From IMG/VR virus record IMGVR_UViG_3300035162_003660, positions 1 through 20,021 of that record: a stretch of DNA of 20,021 bases; one strand, written 5' to 3'. Position numbers and translations under genes: made by a program. This DNA is from a virus. Numbering within the stretch: the stretch's first letter is position 1; each line of letters starts with the position of its first letter. This document shows, one piece after another, positions 5,445-12,492 of this stretch. The notes under the pieces are model-generated. The model did no database searches and was not told where the DNA came from. It saw only the letters and a program-made list of their open reading frames with translations.

Positions 5445-6160
5445 AAGCTCAAATTGTCTATACTTCTTCGCACGAAATTTCAAGGAAGTCTGGTTTCGAA
5501 AGTCTGTCTTCCTTTGATTCTAAGAAAGGCTGGGATGTATCTTTAATAGAAGGTATCGTTCGTGAAGACTTTGATGACCTTGTGCAAGGAAATAAGTTTC
5601 GTAATGATTTTGATGTCAAATTTGCCAAGAACGGTCGCCTATGGATGATGAAGAATGGTAACGACCCAGTCTGGAAAACAAAACAAGCTTGTGTTTTTAA
5701 TCATCTATATTTCTGGAAGAAAGTAATAGAGTCTAACGAAACACAGTGTTTTATCGAACACGATATTATCTGCGTTGCTGATGCGGAAGACTACGAATTC
5801 GAAGACTATCTAATACTGAATATGGGCGACGCGTTTACCAATAAAAAATACCCCGTGCAGAAAAACATACGAAATTACCCTATTCCAATGGATAAAAAGT
5901 ATAACAATCTTTTGGATGATAAGAGCTACCCTTTGGTGTATAATAAGAGTAATGAATGGGCGAACGCTTATATGGTTCCTGGAACTGCCTCATATGCAAT
6001 AACACCAGCCGGAGCGAAGAAGATGCTCGAAGCGGCCCTTACAATCGGCCTTGATCAATCTGATTATATACTGAATACAAAGAATTGTAATATTCAGTAT
6101 ATTAATCCTAGTCCGGTTGTTTTCAATACACAATACGTTACAACTAGTTGGGGAATGTAA
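5441..6160 (+). CDS. GT25-like glycosyltransferase
   Basis: The 239-residue product resembles LPS-type GT25 enzymes, with the ACVFNHLYFWKKVIE segment (83-97), which corresponds to the G/A-C-x-x-SH-xxLW element, then CFIEHDII with EHD at 106-108 in the position of the metal-binding ExD/EDD, and PGTASYAITPAGAKKML (186-202) matching the PGTxxYxIxxxGAxKLL motif. A LDQSDYIL segment follows, where the family has its substrate Asp. SHxxLW is changed to NHLYFW, so it is a divergent member. The TAA stop shares its last base with the ATG of the radical-SAM gene. Confidence 0.7.
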   Translation: MKAQIVYTSSHEISRKSGFESLSSFDSKKGWDVSLIEGIVREDFDDLVQGNKFRNDFDVKFAKNGRLWMMKNGNDPVWKTKQACVFNHLYFWKKVIESNETQCFIEHDIICVADAEDYEFEDYLILNMGDAFTNKKYPVQKNIRNYPIPMDKKYNNLLDDKSYPLVYNKSNEWANAYMVPGTASYAITPAGAKKMLEAALTIGLDQSDYILNTKNCNIQYINPSPVVFNTQYVTTSWGM

Positions 6161-7101
6161 TGATTAAGATTCCAGGAGCAGAAGGTAATAATCGCATACC
6201 AATGGTCGCAGTTGATCAGTGGCAAATGATAGAACATAGAAAAAAACAAGAAGCAGAACACTGGGATAAAATTCAGGAAAGGAACGCGCTCAATTCTATT
6301 CTAACAATTGAGATCAATACTACTGAACTTTGTAACCGCACATGTGTATTCTGTCCTCGACACGACCCAAAAGTATATGACAACCGAAACCTTCACCTAA
6401 CGGTAAAAGGCGCTACCATCATTGCAGAGGAACTCGAGCGGTCTTCTTTTGAAGGCAAGATATCCTTCAGCGGGTTTGGCGAGAATCTATTAAACCCTTG
6501 GTTCCCTGAAATCATCGAGGTGTTCCGCAAACATAGACCAAGTAATGTAATCGAATGTAACACTAATGGCGACAAGTTAGACGAGCATTACGCTCGAAGA
6601 ATCTTTGACGCTGGGATGTCTATAATTTACGTCAACCTTTATGATGGTATGGAACAGGTAGACCATTTTGACGAATTGTTCGACCTTGCTGGTATTACTC
6701 AAGAAAAATATAAGTACCGAGTGCACTGGGGCGGTATGGAGAACCATGGCCTCGTGTTAAACAATCGAAGCGGCGTTGTTGACTGGATGGGTATTGACGA
6801 GTCGACAATTGAAGCTGTCAAGGACAAACCCTGCTACTATCCCTTCTATAAGATGTTTGTTGATTGGAACGGTGATTGTATTCTTTGTTGCAATGATTGG
6901 AATAGAGAACAAGTAGTCGGTAATCTTATCACACAAAGCCTTAGTGATGTGTGGTTTGGTAAACCAATGACTAAGATAAGAAACAAACTGAAGAAAGGTA
7001 ATCGTACAGAAAAACCTTGTAATAAATGTAATGTGGACGGCACTTTATTTGGTAAGCCATCCTTTGATTTTATTAACGCATTAGGCGCAAACAATGAATA
7101 A
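6160..7101 (+). CDS. Radical SAM protein with SPASM-like C-terminus
   Basis: The 313-residue product has the radical-SAM CX3CX2C motif CNRTCVFC (Cys58, 62, 65) binding the 4Fe-4S cluster that cleaves SAM, a GFGENL segment near 106 in the SAM-binding GGE position, and a cysteine-rich C-terminus with Cys225, 240, 243, 244, 287 and 290 (NGDCILCCND, PCNKC) that fits a SPASM auxiliary-cluster domain. ATG 6160 is used; an in-frame TTG at 6148 is less likely because GGGGA (6149-6153) is a good Shine-Dalgarno for ATG 6160. The chemistry (sugar or peptide modification) is not deducible. Its setting among glycosyltransferases suggests glycan or glycoprotein modification. Confidence 0.87.
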   Translation: MIKIPGAEGNNRIPMVAVDQWQMIEHRKKQEAEHWDKIQERNALNSILTIEINTTELCNRTCVFCPRHDPKVYDNRNLHLTVKGATIIAEELERSSFEGKISFSGFGENLLNPWFPEIIEVFRKHRPSNVIECNTNGDKLDEHYARRIFDAGMSIIYVNLYDGMEQVDHFDELFDLAGITQEKYKYRVHWGGMENHGLVLNNRSGVVDWMGIDESTIEAVKDKPCYYPFYKMFVDWNGDCILCCNDWNREQVVGNLITQSLSDVWFGKPMTKIRNKLKKGNRTEKPCNKCNVDGTLFGKPSFDFINALGANNE

Positions 7102-7963
7102 CATATTTACCCAAATGAGTAAGAAAAACGAAAAACAAAAAACGTTTACCGTTGACCATCCTTCGTCAGTATGGAAAAAATTCAAGAGTCCTTTTCAGGT
7201 CGCAAATTTCTTAAGCAACCAAGAAAGAATGCTAGATGTAATGAAGCTACTCAGCCCTCGAAAACCAAAGGGTATGAAGAAAGTGCGAATTGGAGAACAG
7301 AATGATGGAGGTTATGTTTTTCTTGAGGACTTATTAACAAACGGCAAGGTCGCTTATTCTATTGGTATCGGTAAGACTGTCAAATTCGAAGAAGCAATTG
7401 AAACATATGGTCATCATATCTGGATGTACGACCATACCGTCGACGGTAGTCGGTTTAAGACACCCAACAGGACAATCCAGAAAATAGGAATTGGTACAAA
7501 TAACAAAGGTGAGTTTCAAACATTAAAAACAATGATTGATAGTAATGGTCATCAAAAAGAAACCAATATGCTTCTGCAGATGGATTGCGAGGGAGCAGAG
7601 TGGGAGGTCTTTGCCAATATGAATTCTGAAGACCTGCTCAGGTTATCTGGCTTCTCTCAGCTTTGTATTGAAATGCATTGGTTTGTCTCCTATTTCTCTC
7701 GAGCAGACTCGACCGATCTTATTCAGAGGGCATTAACAAATCTTCGAAAGAACTTTACGCCATGTCATGTGCACGCGAATAATTGGTCGGGGTTCTATAA
7801 GATTCCACGCGTGCCGCCAATAGCAGAAACCTTCGAAGTTACTTGGGTGCGCAATGATCTTGTAGAATGGGACGACGCCGCCGAAGAAATTTATCCAACA
7901 GAATTTGACTCGCCTTGTAACGATACAAGATATGAAATTGAATTGGGTAACGCACAATGGTAA
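7094..7963 (+). CDS. FkbM/Methyltransf_22-like SAM methyltransferase
   Basis: The 289-residue product has RIGEQNDGGYV at 65-75 and YSIGIGK at 88-94 as the SAM-binding start, MYDHTVDG at 111-118 as the acidic loop, and MDCEGAEWEVF at 163-173, the hallmark of FkbM-type O-methyltransferases, followed by LCIEMHWF near 191. A CHVHANNWSGF segment is also typical of the FkbM/METTL24 group. About 60 N-terminal residues precede the fold. It overlaps its neighbours by 8 and 7 nt. The expected role is O-methylation of a sugar within the glycan made by this cluster, an inference from family and position. Confidence 0.8.
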   Translation: MNNIFTQMSKKNEKQKTFTVDHPSSVWKKFKSPFQVANFLSNQERMLDVMKLLSPRKPKGMKKVRIGEQNDGGYVFLEDLLTNGKVAYSIGIGKTVKFEEAIETYGHHIWMYDHTVDGSRFKTPNRTIQKIGIGTNNKGEFQTLKTMIDSNGHQKETNMLLQMDCEGAEWEVFANMNSEDLLRLSGFSQLCIEMHWFVSYFSRADSTDLIQRALTNLRKNFTPCHVHANNWSGFYKIPRVPPIAETFEVTWVRNDLVEWDDAAEEIYPTEFDSPCNDTRYEIELGNAQW

Positions 7964-8751
7964 AAAACATCGCAATACGTTCGATGTCTATGTGGCGAAA
8001 AGAAGTCCCGTATACGACTCCAGGAGTCGGCGATAGAATACATGCTGTACTGTTCGGACAGAAATATGCAGATGCGCATGAGTGTGATGTTGTTCTACAT
8101 TTAACCTCTGACAAATATGGTAAGCAAGCTAAGAAAGACACATGGGCAGCATTGAGTGAAATGACACGAGGTAAAGTTACTGTCAAAGCGTGGCCGGTCT
8201 GTGGCTTAACTGAACCCGATTGGATCCAATACCTCGAGGCTCAGGGCGTAGAAGAACCACAAACTTATTACTATAAAGACTGGGTGGACCTGCAACCTCT
8301 AGGGCCAGTTAAAGGTATGGATCTTATTGACGCAGACGAATACCTGACAGAATCCCCCGTACTTGAACCCATTGATTGTTCTAGACAAATCAAATTACCG
8401 GCGCGCTATGTAACTATTCAATGGGATTCAGCAGACGGTAGTAGACAATTGTCCCCAATTCTATTGAATAAGATTGAAAATAAGTATAGAATGAAAGGAC
8501 TAGATTTAATAGTAGTTGGAGGAGAAGCTCGGAAAGAGCATTTAAGAACTTCTCTGCAGCATGTAGGGTTCTGTATGGCGCATTCTGAAGGCCATGTTGG
8601 GATTGACTCAGGAATGTTACATATGGCAACACTCTACACACCTTGGGATAAAATAGACGTTTATAATCCAATTGGAAATATTAAAGGCAAATCATCACAC
8701 CATGTGCATCGACTGCAGAAATATGGCGCTAGTGTTAATACATACGTATAA
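7957..8751 (+). CDS. GT9-like (heptosyltransferase-type) glycosyltransferase
   Basis: The 264-residue GT-B-like protein starts with GVGDRIHAVLFGQKYAD (23-39), the N-terminal glycine-rich loop of GT9, continues with YVTIQWDSADGSRQLSP near 148, LDLIVVGGEA near 183, and ends in a donor-binding half with GHVGIDSGMLHMATLY (213-228), the D-SG-xxH-xA element of ADP-heptose transferases. At 264 residues it is shorter than typical WaaC/WaaF enzymes (about 320-350). A GT9 enzyme beside heptose-activation genes is suggestive, but the donor remains unproven. Confidence 0.72.
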   Translation: MVKNIAIRSMSMWRKEVPYTTPGVGDRIHAVLFGQKYADAHECDVVLHLTSDKYGKQAKKDTWAALSEMTRGKVTVKAWPVCGLTEPDWIQYLEAQGVEEPQTYYYKDWVDLQPLGPVKGMDLIDADEYLTESPVLEPIDCSRQIKLPARYVTIQWDSADGSRQLSPILLNKIENKYRMKGLDLIVVGGEARKEHLRTSLQHVGFCMAHSEGHVGIDSGMLHMATLYTPWDKIDVYNPIGNIKGKSSHHVHRLQKYGASVNTYV

Positions 8752-8762
8752 GGAAATGAAAA

Positions 8763-9413
8763 ATGAAAGCTTGGGACGAATACAAATTCGCGAACACTGT
8801 TGAAGAAGCTCAGATTATACAAGAAACCCTTCTCACAAAAGACATTCCCGAAGAAAGCCAAAACTCGTTTAAACGATTGAAGTCGTTAATGCGATATGCT
8901 GCAAAATGTAATTCCGTAAAAGAGATTGGTATATTTCAGGGCAGTTCATTAATGGCAATGATGACTCAAGACAGCGTAAAACAAGGCGTTGGAATTGATA
9001 TTAATCTGACTGCATTTAATGCACATTTGAAACCTTTGTTGACTGAATACTGTAGCCGTACAGGAAAGACATTGAAAACTCACGGTGTCAGTTCTTTGGA
9101 CAAGTCAACTGTAAGTCCTGTTGATATGCTACACATCGACAGTTTACATAAACCCGAGCATTTAAAAAAGGAATTACAAACGCACCACGAGTCAGTATGG
9201 AAATATATTGCGTTTCACGACATAAAACAAAATGACTGGGCGTTGCTCAAAGTTATTGAAGATTTTTGCAGTACAAACTTTCAATGGTCGGTTGTAGAAA
9301 GGTTAACTGGTGGCGGCGCAGGACATGCCGTGATTGCTCGAAACGCGACTGAAGAAGACATGGGAGAAATTCAAAAGAAACCAGCTGGGCCAACAAAACG
9401 TATTAGCAGTTAA
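8763..9413 (+). CDS. Class I SAM methyltransferase (Methyltransf_24-like)
   Basis: The 216-residue product has EIGIFQGSSLMAMM at 54-67 as SAM motif I, GVGIDI at 75-80 as the acidic ribose-binding strand, VDMLHIDSLHKPEHLKKEL at 120-138 matching the DxxxIDGxH-xxxxxxxDL element of Methyltransf_24/cephalosporin-hydroxylase-like proteins, and YIAFHDI at 148-154. AAGGAAA precedes ATG 8763. It is one of three methyltransferases interleaved with GT9-like genes. The last ~80 nt may overlap the start of the next gene if that gene starts upstream of 9415. Substrate unknown, probably a sugar. Confidence 0.8.
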   Translation: MKAWDEYKFANTVEEAQIIQETLLTKDIPEESQNSFKRLKSLMRYAAKCNSVKEIGIFQGSSLMAMMTQDSVKQGVGIDINLTAFNAHLKPLLTEYCSRTGKTLKTHGVSSLDKSTVSPVDMLHIDSLHKPEHLKKELQTHHESVWKYIAFHDIKQNDWALLKVIEDFCSTNFQWSVVERLTGGGAGHAVIARNATEEDMGEIQKKPAGPTKRISS

Positions 9414-9414
9414 A

Positions 9415-10203
9415 ATGGGAATGGGAGATGATATGTTTTTTCTCGGCGAGGCTGAGAAAATCTTTAAAGAAACTGGCCAACTAGTAAGGCCAGTTGGTAG
9501 TGGTAAATCTCCTCTTTTTAATAACGTTGAGTTTCTATCGGACAGCGGAGTAACTGTCAACACAAGAGACACCACTCCAGAAAAAACAGACTATAAAATA
9601 CAGTATATGTGCTCAGAGGAGAGAAGGACTATTCTGGGTAAGAAAATGGTCTGGCGACCATATAAGATTAAACCTTTTCATATTCGATTCACCGAGAAAG
9701 AATTAGAAACCGCAGATAAAATTTTAGAAGAACACAATGTACCAAAAGAGTTTGCTGCGATCAATCCTGACTTTAAAAATACATTCTTCGGTTCGAATAA
9801 AAACTGGGGGTTTAAAAAGTATCAAGAGTTGGTGAATAGATTAGACATACCTTGCGTTCGAATAACACCAAAAGGAATCTACAAAGAACCTTTACTTAAT
9901 GGCGCAATAAATATTGAGAGTGAAGACGTTCGTGTCTCTTTTGCTGTATTGAGAAAGGCGAAGTTTGGTGTAGGTTATATCGGAATGTTTATCCATGCTC
10001 TGGGTGGTATGGGCATTCCCTGCGTTGTCTTGCAGGGTGGTATTGCAAACACTTCACTTGGTGAATATCCTGGCCATATCAATATTGAATATGACCATCC
10101 GATATCACCCTGTGGCAACACTTACGATTGCACCCATTGTGCCGACGCCAATGAATGGATGACAGTTGATATGATTTATAATGCATGTAGGGAATTAATA
10201 TGA
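9415..10203 (+). CDS. GT9-like (heptosyltransferase-type) glycosyltransferase
   Basis: The 262-residue GT-B-like protein opens MGMGDDMFFLGEAEKIF, the glycine-rich GlGD loop of GT9, and contains AAINPDFKN near 123, NWGFKKYQELVNRL near 140, and the C-terminal GVGYIGMFIHALGGMGIPCVVL donor-site region typical of heptosyltransferases (only part quoted as key residues: Gly-Met-Phe-Ile-His-Ala). A tail with C-DCTHC may bind metal. ATG 9415 is 1 nt after the previous stop. The frame stays open upstream to a TTG at 9334, and the residues just before ATG (NVLAVK) look like the first GT9 beta strand, so the true start may be upstream. Confidence 0.75.
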   Translation: MGMGDDMFFLGEAEKIFKETGQLVRPVGSGKSPLFNNVEFLSDSGVTVNTRDTTPEKTDYKIQYMCSEERRTILGKKMVWRPYKIKPFHIRFTEKELETADKILEEHNVPKEFAAINPDFKNTFFGSNKNWGFKKYQELVNRLDIPCVRITPKGIYKEPLLNGAINIESEDVRVSFAVLRKAKFGVGYIGMFIHALGGMGIPCVVLQGGIANTSLGEYPGHINIEYDHPISPCGNTYDCTHCADANEWMTVDMIYNACRELI

Positions 10204-10703
10204 GTGATCACACGATACAATTCGGCGGTAAAATTTACCCTAGACTTCAGCAAGAAGGATTTGCGTCTCAATACGCATTTCCCTTTGCGGCTAAGATCTT
10301 AAAGGGTAAAGGAGTTGATGTTGGCTGTATGAAACCAGAGTGGGCGTTTCCAGGTGCAATACCTGTTGATCTAGACTTTGATGACGAATGGGAAGCTATG
10401 AATCTGCCCGAAGGTGAATTAGATTATATCTTCTCCTCGCATTGCCTCGAGCATCTACCGGATTGGGTTGGAGTTTTAGACTACTGGCATGATCAATTAA
10501 AGGTTGGCGGTCTTCTGTTTTTATACCTGCCCAGTTATCAACAAGAGTACTGGAAACCTTGGCACAATCGCAAGCATGTTAATGTTTTAGAGCCACACAT
10601 TGTCCGTGACTATCTTCAGTCTAGAGGGAGATGGCGCGAAGTCATTGTCACAGATGGATTCGACTTAAATCATTCTTTCTACGCGACTGCCAGAAAAGTT
10701 TAA
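10200..10703 (+). CDS. Class I SAM methyltransferase (Methyltransf_11-like)
   Basis: This 167-residue single-domain methyltransferase has VDVGC at 39-43 as SAM motif I, IPVDLD at 54-59 as the acidic loop, LDYIFSSHCLEHLPDW at 74-89 as the motif II/III region common in Methyltransf_11 enzymes, and GGLLFLYLPSY near 104 as the post-motif strand. It overlaps the GT9-like gene by ATGA and the nucleotidyltransferase by one base (TAATG). Small size and position suggest sugar methylation. The motif I loop carries Cys-Met-Lys instead of the usual Gly-x-Gly, so activity should be tested rather than assumed. Confidence 0.8.
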   Translation: MSDHTIQFGGKIYPRLQQEGFASQYAFPFAAKILKGKGVDVGCMKPEWAFPGAIPVDLDFDDEWEAMNLPEGELDYIFSSHCLEHLPDWVGVLDYWHDQLKVGGLLFLYLPSYQQEYWKPWHNRKHVNVLEPHIVRDYLQSRGRWREVIVTDGFDLNHSFYATARKV

Positions 10704-11164
10704 TGAAACCAACCCCGCTGTATCCAAATCGAGTTGAAGAGCTATGCCTAGATCATAAGGTAAAGATTCTGGTGAACGGTGCGTTTGATATTCTGCACAC
10801 CGGCCACATCGATTTGTTTATGTATGCTAAGTCTCTGGGATATGTAATCTGCGCGCTTGACAGTGACGAGAGAATACGGCAGAATAAAGGAATAGATCGC
10901 CCAGTTAATTCTTTGGAAGTTAGAGCCAAGATTTTGTCTCGTATAGTTGACATTAACGAAATTTGGACATTTAACAGTGACTTAGAATTGATTTATCTTA
11001 TGAATAGAGCAGACATGAGAGTCATTGGTTCTGATTGGAAAGGTAAAGATATTGTTGGTGAAGGTCTGATCGATATTGATTTTTTTGGAAGAGTAAATGA
11101 TGAAGCAACCACAAACACCCTTGAGAATTATATTAATCGGCGAAACTTGTTGGGACACTTATAG
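10703..11164 (+). CDS. HldE C-terminal-type nucleotidyltransferase (heptose-1-phosphate adenylyltransferase-like)
   Basis: This 153-residue cytidylyltransferase-superfamily enzyme has VNGAFDILHTGHIDLF around 24-39, including HTGH (32-35), the nucleotide-binding HxGH. DRPVNSLEVRAKIL and ATTNTLENY match the RPVNxLExRxxxL and STTNxIxxI elements of the HldE/RfaE C-terminal domain. In the standard pathway that domain converts D-glycero-D-manno-heptose 1-phosphate to ADP-heptose. Glycerol-3-phosphate cytidylyltransferase is the main alternative. Here it stands alone, unlike the fused HldE of many enterobacteria. ATG 10703 (TAATG) is chosen over an upstream ATG at 10631. The last 68 nt overlap the kinase gene. 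Confidence 0.82.
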   Translation: MKPTPLYPNRVEELCLDHKVKILVNGAFDILHTGHIDLFMYAKSLGYVICALDSDERIRQNKGIDRPVNSLEVRAKILSRIVDINEIWTFNSDLELIYLMNRADMRVIGSDWKGKDIVGEGLIDIDFFGRVNDEATTNTLENYINRRNLLGHL

Positions 11165-11849
11165 GTCTGGAGCAGTAAATCGAATAAGTCCCGAAGCTCC
11201 TGTGCCCGTTTTAGATTGGTCCGGCGAGGAAACTTCCCAAGAAGGTATGGCAATGAATGTTTGTCAGAACCTTAAAAACCTTGGGGTTGAGGTAGAACTT
11301 CATACAAGGTTTGTTGAACAAAAGATAAGATACTTTAGCGGTCAACATCAGCTGTTGAGAGTAGACACTCCTCTGTTTGGCTGGTCTACCTTTGACCCCG
11401 AAGAAATAGAAGAATGGAACCCAGACGCCATCGTCATCTCTGATTATAATAAAGGGTTTGTGTCCTACGACGCCATAAGATACATTCGTACTAACTATTC
11501 TGGACCGATGTTTATTGATACCAAGAAGCCAGACCTGCAGCAATTTGACGGAATTATTACTAAGATAAATACTGACGAATGGAACCGAAGAGTCAGCGAT
11601 CATCCTGATTCAAACCAATTGATTGTTACGGGTGGTGGTGGTAAGATTACATCTGGCGAAAAAGAATGGTCACCAGAACAAATAGAAATGGTTGATGTTT
11701 GTGGTGCAGGAGATACTTTCTTTGCAGCTTACATTGTCGAATATTTGCAAACGCATAACAAATCAGATGCAATAGAATTTGCTATGAAAGCCGCTGCAAT
11801 TACTGTGCAACATTTAGGAGTCTATGCTCCGACACTGGAAGAGATATGA
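11097..11849 (+). CDS. HldE N-terminal-type PfkB kinase (heptose-7-phosphate kinase-like)
   Basis: The 250-residue PfkB-family sugar kinase has GETCWDTYRSG at 15-25, RISPEAPVPVLDW at 29-41 (a hallmark of HldE/RfaE kinase domains), QLLRVD at 85-90, VISDYNKGF at 113-121, and DVCGAGDTFFAAY at 200-212 with catalytic Asp206. HldE kinase domains have about 310-320 residues; here the segment between NLGVEVELHT and QLLRVD is about 30-40 residues short, so the lid or oligomer contacts may differ. The expected reaction is ATP-dependent phosphorylation of heptose 7-phosphate at O1. It overlaps the nucleotidyltransferase by 68 nt, and its own fold requires this start, so the overlap looks genuine. It overlaps the cupin gene by ATGA. 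Confidence 0.85.
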   Translation: MMKQPQTPLRIILIGETCWDTYRSGAVNRISPEAPVPVLDWSGEETSQEGMAMNVCQNLKNLGVEVELHTRFVEQKIRYFSGQHQLLRVDTPLFGWSTFDPEEIEEWNPDAIVISDYNKGFVSYDAIRYIRTNYSGPMFIDTKKPDLQQFDGIITKINTDEWNRRVSDHPDSNQLIVTGGGGKITSGEKEWSPEQIEMVDVCGAGDTFFAAYIVEYLQTHNKSDAIEFAMKAAAITVQHLGVYAPTLEEI

Positions 11850-12205
11850 CTAGACTAGAAGGGTTTGTAGAAAAGGCGTGGGGTTCAGAATTAATCTGGG
11901 CAACGAACGATCTGTATTGTGGTAAGTTAATGAAGTTCAACGCGGGTTGTTCGTTCTCTATGCACCTACACAAAGAGAAAGACGAGACTTGGTATGTGTT
12001 GTCGGGTAAATTTATTCTTAAATTGATCGACACAAAAAATGCTAGTGTCGCAGAGCAAATCCTAAATACTGGGGATGTGTGGAGGAACGAACCAATGCTT
12101 CCCCATCAACTTTATTGCCTCGAAGAAGGAACTATCATTGAGGTATCAACCCCTGACTCTGTGGAAGATAACTACAGAGTAGCGAAAGGAAAAGGCCGAA
12201 GGTAA
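11846..12205 (+). CDS. Cupin-fold protein, sugar isomerase/epimerase-like
   Basis: This 119-residue single cupin domain has His40-X-His42-X4-Glu47 (MHLHKEKDETWYVLSGKF) and His87 (LPHQL), the four cupin metal ligands, with GDVWRNEP as the second motif. It resembles cupins in carbohydrate clusters, including the C-terminal domain of type II phosphomannose isomerase, so it may isomerise or bind a sugar phosphate. True mannose-6-phosphate isomerase activity cannot be claimed at this length. It starts at the ATGA overlap with the kinase and is followed 5 nt later by the HAD gene. Confidence 0.75.
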   Translation: MTRLEGFVEKAWGSELIWATNDLYCGKLMKFNAGCSFSMHLHKEKDETWYVLSGKFILKLIDTKNASVAEQILNTGDVWRNEPMLPHQLYCLEEGTIIEVSTPDSVEDNYRVAKGKGRR

Positions 12206-12210
12206 ATTAA

Positions 12211-12492
12211 ATGAGATATATTGTCGACATAGACAAAACTATCTGTTTAACATTAAACAGTAATTACAGTGGTTCATTGGCGATAAGAAAACACATTGAA
12301 AAAATAAACTCTTTGTATGACGCGGGTCATGAAGTCATTTACTGGACCGCTCGTGGTGCCACTAGTAATAAGCTCTGGGGGAAATTAACTAGAGAGCAAC
12401 TTGAGGAGTGGGGATGTCGTTATACAGAACTCTGGATGAACAAACCACAATATGATGTGTGGGTAGACGATAAAGCTGATTGGATATTTTAA
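12211..12492 (+). CDS. Small HAD-superfamily phosphatase, possible heptose-bisphosphate phosphatase role
   Basis: The 93-residue cap-less HAD protein has DIDKT with nucleophile Asp6 and acid Asp8 (VDIDKTICL), YWTARG at 44-49 (motif II Thr46), Lys78 in NKP as motif III, and VDDKADW with Asp86-Asp87 as motif IV. All catalytic residues are present in a minimal size. Relatives occur in capsule and LPS clusters. In the heptose pathway a phosphatase (GmhB) acts between the kinase and the nucleotidyltransferase, and this gene lies in the same operon, so it is a candidate for that step. True GmhB is about 190 residues, so this would be a functional replacement and not an orthologue. Confidence 0.75.
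   Translation: MRYIVDIDKTICLTLNSNYSGSLAIRKHIEKINSLYDAGHEVIYWTARGATSNKLWGKLTREQLEEWGCRYTELWMNKPQYDVWVDDKADWIF

Follow-up and report, generated by a model that had tools for sequence, protein, structure and literature searches.

The DNA analysed here (called the window) is a complete IMG/VR virus record, IMGVR_UViG_3300035162_003660, of 20,021 bases. It is a piece of the genome of a marine, T4-like phage and carries four consecutive genes for an HldC-like nucleotidyltransferase, a short HldA-like PfkB kinase, a cupin and a capless HAD phosphatase. In our judgement it is likely that this operon yields a nucleotide-activated heptose from sedoheptulose 7-phosphate, with the cupin serving as the isomerase. 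With a little less confidence, we propose that the cupin is an unrecognised, non-orthologous replacement for GmhA in phages and DPANN archaea, and that phages may encode a full route from sedoheptulose 7-phosphate, a central-carbon metabolite, to a nucleoside diphosphate (NDP)-heptose-type product without a host lipopolysaccharide (LPS) enzyme.

The route would run as follows. The cupin would isomerise sedoheptulose 7-phosphate, which is usually the step of GmhA; the short HldA-like kinase would phosphorylate C1; the capless HAD would strip the 7-phosphate, as GmhB usually does; and the HldC-like nucleotidyltransferase would form NDP-heptose, most likely ADP-heptose. In related phages an HldD-like enzyme would then epimerise the product. 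The heptose reading of the module appears well supported because the kinase is HldA-like, the nucleotidyltransferase is HldC-like, and related phages have HldD-like epimerases and GmhB homologues at the same position. These last two also back the initial annotation of this DNA, made from its letters alone, which had described a heptose-activation module; the four consecutive genes and the motifs it listed (HTGH, RPVNSLE, ATTNT, RISPEAPVPV and DVCGAGD) are all present.

Recurrence of the four-gene module

Conservation of the four-gene set is well beyond chance, because two metagenome contigs (L002 and L003) keep all four genes at 78-89% amino acid identity and because 31 phage records from isolates or single cells, as well as about 80 IMG/VR loci, have the set too. 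The IMG/VR loci come from a search with the kinase profile in which at least 579 loci were confirmed; of these we retained the best 80, some of them clipped by contig ends. Among these best 80 viral loci, the nucleotidyltransferase is found with the kinase in 76, the cupin in 73 and an HldD-like epimerase in 66. For the HldD-like epimerases of isolate phages, TIGR02197 (heptose-6-epimerase) gives about 180-218 bits, below its cut-off of 274.6, and GalE about 50.

Are these genes functional at all? For cyanophage LPS genes, the possibility that they are non-functional 'stuffer' cargo has been left open (Sullivan et al. 2010, PMC3037559). We regard this as highly improbable for the present module, since its catalytic residues are invariant across highly diverged phages, and since the order of the genes, their overlaps and the exchange of one partner for another (GmhB or the mini-HAD) are all preserved.

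The cupin as a probable replacement for GmhA

To our knowledge GmhA is the one known enzyme family for the first committed step of heptose synthesis. The initial annotation had seen no GmhA-type isomerase in the window, and this holds: GmhA (SIS fold) was found neither there nor in any of 50 virus contigs, and was present in 1 of 19 other records. It had gone on to suppose that the isomerase comes from the host or that the sugar is not a standard heptose. That is probably wrong, the cupin being the best candidate isomerase. Its distribution, its exclusion with GmhA, its fusions in archaea, the Nanobdellota genomes and its conserved residues lead us to predict that it is probably a sedoheptulose-7-phosphate isomerase acting in place of GmhA.

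The cupin occurs in 35 of 50,697 phage records, among them each of the 31 from isolates or single cells that have the module kinase. In the remaining four, namely SynMITS9220M01, AG-345-E15 and a pair of Bellamy records, an HddA-like gene stands on one side of it and an HddC-like gene on the other. Activated heptose can be reached by an Hld or an Hdd route; these differ in kinase and nucleotidyltransferase and have the isomerase and the 7-phosphatase in common. A protein found in both the HldA/HldC and HddA/HddC routes is therefore expected at a shared step, that is, as isomerase or phosphatase.

Cupin and GmhA also avoid one another. At 176 kinase loci, 98 have only the cupin nearby, 24 have GmhA only and none has both, although these counts ignore relatedness and viral rows dominate the set, which tells against giving them full weight. 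Among 279 Nanobdellota genomes, 16 have a kinase-linked cupin and 61 others have the kinase; GmhA occurs in 1 of the former and in 44 of the latter (p = 2e-6, likewise uncorrected for relatedness). Gene fusions in DPANN archaea follow the same pattern: seven genomes (L214-L218, L221, L222) encode an HldA with the cupin as its C-terminal domain, and in four others belonging to the same phylum (L233-L236) GmhA takes that place at the C-terminus of HldA. A single 504-amino acid open reading frame in L211 combines GmhB, cupin and nucleotidyltransferase. Fusions of nucleotidyltransferase and GmhB were likewise met in DPANN archaea, where heptose activation looks modular and has been little described.

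As to active-site residues, the cupin has a metal site HxH(x)4E plus H87, in which H42, E47 and H87 are invariant and H40 nearly so among 87 members; K27, K45, E99 and D108 are invariant too. The cupin profile matches D-lyxose isomerase 2y0o with E 3e-6. In D-lyxose isomerase the sugar and metal ligands are K62, H75, H77, K86, E88, H143, E156 and D163, and activity is lost if K86, E156 or D163 is altered (PMC8378251). Aligned via 2y0o, phage K27, H40, H42, K45, E47, H87 and E99 correspond to K62, H75, H77, K86, E88, H143 and E156, so that seven of the eight site residues are kept. As a small control, neither of the two other best PDB alignments has Lys at the position two residues ahead of the metal Glu. 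Matches to the Pfam families Lyx_isomer and MannoseP_isomer at E <= 0.01 were obtained for 28 and 56 of the 87 cupins, respectively; the window cupin has them below 0.1 only. The interconversions of lyxose and xylulose, of mannose and fructose, and of D-glycero-D-manno-heptose and sedoheptulose are one and the same aldose-ketose change.

Other results argue less well for an isomerase. The counterpart of D163 is the invariant D108, which lies two positions off. Foldseek with the cupin returns oxalate decarboxylase, quercetinase and CapF, in other words cupins generally; the top 50 do include lyxose isomerases and a Thermococcus phosphomannose isomerase, though not in first place. Might activated heptose be made with a host GmhA, the cupin acting later, for example on the NDP-sugar? 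Such a role would suit the unspecific Foldseek result and the fact that cupins are frequently sugar-nucleotide epimerases or isomerases, and several marine alphaproteobacterial genomes carry GmhA. It sits badly, however, with the exclusion of cupin and GmhA at the 176 loci and across the 77 archaeal kinase genomes, and with the joining of either protein to the same end of HldA. Nor does a later role on the NDP-sugar predict archaea that lack GmhA and have their own complete pathway, and the one Prochlorococcus genome examined has no GmhA. We consider host isomerisation unlikely and favour the cupin as isomerase.

Kinase, nucleotidyltransferase and phosphatase

The kinase is predicted to be a heptose-7-phosphate 1-kinase. 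The best curated model for the window protein is TIGR02198 (heptose-7-phosphate kinase) with 105 bits, compared to 41 for ribokinase, and TIGR02198 is the best model for all 15 kinases tested. When a profile of 93 phage kinases was run against the PDB, HldA scored 114 bits and the best ribokinase 52. The AlphaFold (AF2) model has a predicted local distance difference test (pLDDT) value of 94.9; its top seven Foldseek matches are all HldA (E 3e-19 to 9e-17), the next being at 4e-12. In the 93 phage kinases the RxSPEAPVP core (the substrate lid, RISPEAPVPV), SDYxKG, NxxE and GAGD are invariant or nearly so. Alignment with HldA shows one gap of about 29 residues, between the two aligned segments, and another of about 19 beyond it; this shortness is common to the whole phage family, which falls about 65 residues below HldA length. 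The initial annotation had looked to phylogeny to decide the identity of both enzymes, and on this point the outcome is mixed. The kinase is placed within the HldA/HldE radiation and away from ribokinases, with weak support (75/65; the phage clade itself has 99/100), and the tree of the nucleotidyltransferase fits HldC or cytidylyltransferases alike.

With NCBIfam models the nucleotidyltransferase scores 74 bits for TIGR02199 (HldE domain II) and 41 for glycerol-3-phosphate cytidylyltransferase, and HldE domain II is best by E-value in 15 of 15 members tested. The protein matches PHROG 7878 with E 4.5e-30 and has the signatures HxGH, the KG(x)xRP(V/I)N loop and (S/T)T(N/x).

The HAD protein is capless, and its 93 residues include all four HAD motifs; DxDxT, T46, K78 and DD are invariant. 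It is closest to HADs of the EcbF/BcbF type (PDB 9iqw, E 1e-19 by profile). A GmhB orthologue it is not, for phmmer with E. coli GmhB recovers other phage loci and not the window HAD. It is nevertheless plausible that it is a 7-phosphatase substituting for GmhB, because it is never found with GmhB and because SynMITS9220M01 has a 250-amino acid protein in which a mini-HAD is fused to an HldC-like nucleotidyltransferase, amid genes for a GmhA-like isomerase, an HddA-type kinase and a short-chain dehydrogenase/reductase (SDR) epimerase. Among 94 viral loci, 22 have the HAD, 15 have GmhB, none has both and 57 have neither (p = 0.018, uncorrected for relatedness); the HADs, of the A3 type, are in 8 of the best 80 loci and in all 14 further loci surveyed, and the 15 GmhB homologues lie about 1 kb 5' of the kinase. 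The initial annotation had cast the HAD as a GmhB substitute, and both the mutual exclusion and the fusion speak for this, while no homology to GmhB extends beyond the HAD core.

The SynMITS9220M01 fusion is protein 206 (L020:12001-12753), annotated as hypothetical. The HAD family is present in 227 phage records, mostly outside heptose modules. In public resources (PHROG 1238 and PHROG 7851, e.g. PSSM2_311 and PSSM2_312 of NC_006883) the HAD goes under the name 'phosphoheptose isomerase' and the cupin under 'cysteine dioxygenase'. The first name was rejected, as HAD motifs are present and an SIS domain is absent, and the RefSeq/PHROGs names of both proteins look wrong.

The assignments of the module enzymes have to be set against several results that weigh the other way. 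The 105 bits of the window kinase lie under the TIGR02198 cut-off of 345, part of the shortfall coming from the deletion, and no member of the module families tested passed the NCBIfam equivalog cut-offs. Against the PDB the nucleotidyltransferase profile gives 93 bits for glycerol-3-phosphate cytidylyltransferase and 91 for HldC, and its tree allows grouping with HldC or with glycerol/ethanolamine-phosphate cytidylyltransferases (approximately unbiased (AU) test, p 0.545 and 0.501). HldD was sought in the window, L002 and L003 and none was seen; the product may therefore remain D,D-heptose, or the epimerase may sit beyond the 20-kb fragment. Finally, there are the 57 of 94 viral loci with neither phosphatase nearby. 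The core of nucleotidyltransferase, kinase, cupin and HldD is often found without a recognised phosphatase close by (e.g. L110, L121 and L155), and in these cases the step may fall to host GmhB or to an enzyme not yet recognised.

Such results could also mean that heptose-pathway enzymes were recruited to make an NDP-pentose, -hexose or -polyol (CDP-glycerol-like, or NDP-lyxose). The ambiguity of the nucleotidyltransferase, the similarity of the cupin to lyxose isomerase, the loss of some 29 HldA residues from the kinase and the lack of HldD in the window would all be in keeping with a product of this kind. Yet most relatives have HldD-like epimerases and GmhB in the same slot, the same cupin accompanies HddA-type heptose kinases, and the HldA-core residues are conserved throughout the 93 phage kinases. 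A product other than heptose is accordingly, in our estimate, quite unlikely, and a heptose is the product we prefer.

Genomic setting and known systems

The coordinates of the module and of the gene before it are given in Table 1. The nucleotidyltransferase starts within the stop codon of the methyltransferase (TAATG), the kinase and nucleotidyltransferase genes overlap by 68 nt, and the cupin start overlaps the kinase stop (ATGA); overlaps of this sort are typical of translational coupling. A homolog of the methyltransferase is immediately 5' of the nucleotidyltransferase in S-T4 and Sf-CH8 too (55-56% identity), and it is probably an accessory enzyme for sugar or glycan methylation.

Table 1. 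Genes of the putative heptose module in the window and the gene immediately upstream
Feature	Position	Strand	Size	Remarks
Class I S-adenosylmethionine (SAM) methyltransferase	10200..10703	+		PF13489, 37 bits
HldC-like nucleotidyltransferase	10703-11164	+	153 aa	Predicted heptose-1-phosphate nucleotidylyltransferase
Short HldA-like PfkB kinase	11097-11849	+	250 aa	Predicted heptose-7-phosphate 1-kinase
Cupin	11846-12205	+	119 aa	Predicted metal-dependent sedoheptulose-7-phosphate isomerase in GmhA's stead
Capless (C0) HAD phosphatase	12211-12492	+	93 aa	Predicted 7-phosphatase in GmhB's stead

The four genes are located within a glycan cluster (about 3.3-15.2 kb in the window) that has GT25 and GT8-like glycosyltransferases, a radical SAM/SPASM protein, and FkbM-like and other methyltransferases. 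The initial annotation placed two GT9-like transferases just upstream of the module, which we could not confirm; Pfam and PDB sequence searches of 7957-8751 and 9334-10203 gave nothing useful on a GT9 identity, the lone trace being a match of 7957-8751 to heptosyltransferase I at E = 0.057, and the glycosyltransferases recognised in the neighbourhood are those of the GT25 and GT8-like types. In 20 of 94 loci (e.g. L104:8703-9662) a gene upstream of the module encodes a member of a family of about 315 amino acids that is heptosyltransferase-like by eye and has no Pfam match. The radical SAM/SPASM protein (6148-7101) shows 96% identity in L002/L003, well above neighbouring genes. The cluster's glycosyltransferases would place the sugar on a host surface glycan during infection, and the likely benefit would be a block to superinfection or an altered host surface. 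Both protection from superinfection and surface change have been put forward for the glycan genes of phages in earlier work (PMC7824862, PMC7029224).

The PhoH and exonuclease of the window have 46-60% identity to cyanophage-like Kyanoviridae and point to a T4-like member of this family. The closest match of the window core genes is Phage C48C1 (60% identity), for which no host is recorded. Elsewhere, a thiamine pyrophosphate (TPP) enzyme like E1/transketolase and a zinc alcohol dehydrogenase are immediately 5' of the kinase in S-SM2 (L005:11975-13183) and P-TIM68 (L007:8847-9992), which suggests a further variant of the sugar pathway. Short phage-type kinases also turn up in contigs binned as bacteria or archaea (L031, from Prochlorococcus AG-409-P03, and L023-L030, L032 and L033), where they nest among phage sequences in a preliminary tree with incomplete cellular rows; L031 excepted, these contigs probably reflect misbinning or phages infecting the cells.

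The module itself is not new: it has been in cyanophages since P-SSM2, unassigned or mis-annotated, and the cupin has already been taken for some sugar isomerase. T4-GC 304, 305, 307 and 308 were noted to co-occur in three cyanophages as LPS genes that are maybe functionally linked (Sullivan et al. 2010, PMC3037559), and cyanophage clusters of PfkB kinases, HIGH nucleotidyltransferases, cupin sugar isomerases and HAD phosphatases have been described (Iyer et al. 2021, PMC7824862); heptose is mentioned in neither paper. Our literature search, which left subscription papers mostly outside, found no paper that places the module in heptose synthesis with HldD and GmhB as partners, or that has the cupin standing in for GmhA. 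If the cupin assignment is true, a second, unrelated isomerase family would alter how heptose pathways are recognised in genomes, two widespread phage annotations (those of the HAD and the cupin) would be corrected, and phages could carry a complete heptose route into hosts without one. GmhA is itself being pursued as an antibacterial target (PMC11056994).

How does the window compare with systems already known? The nearest are the cyanophage T4-GC 304-308 'LPS gene' clusters (P-SSM2, S-SM2, S-SSM7, S-CAM1/3 and P-TIM68), which have the same families and, in most, the same order of nucleotidyltransferase and kinase; in the window, however, the cupin precedes the HAD and there is no adjacent epimerase. 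SynMITS9220M01, whose genes were termed heptose-related by its authors (PMC7378029), shares the cupin and the HAD-nucleotidyltransferase pairing, in fused form, but has GHMP-type HddA kinases and one true GmhA, in a second cluster that is cupin-less. The cupin D-lyxose isomerases (2y0o, 7nzo-q) have a like metal site and second-shell residues (YCxK, HxH, KxE, H, ExS) and carry out an aldose-ketose isomerisation whose C2 configuration is the same (mannose/fructose, lyxose/xylulose), whereas they are about 175-200 amino acids long and match the shorter phage cupin weakly in sequence, and the predicted phage substrate is a C7 sugar phosphate. The initial annotation spoke of a 'split HldE': kinase and nucleotidyltransferase are indeed separate HldA-like and HldC-like proteins, but this is not unusual, for Burkholderia likewise has separate HldA and HldC (PDB 4e84, 5x9q) and the split arrangement is established. 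Compared with the ADP-L-glycero-beta-D-manno-heptose pathway (GmhA, HldA/HldE1, GmhB, HldC/HldE2, HldD), the predicted steps are the same, the kinase and nucleotidyltransferase are homologous, and the epimerase and GmhB are present in relatives; the window differs in having a cupin for GmhA, a shorter kinase, a 93-amino acid capless HAD for GmhB and no HldD.

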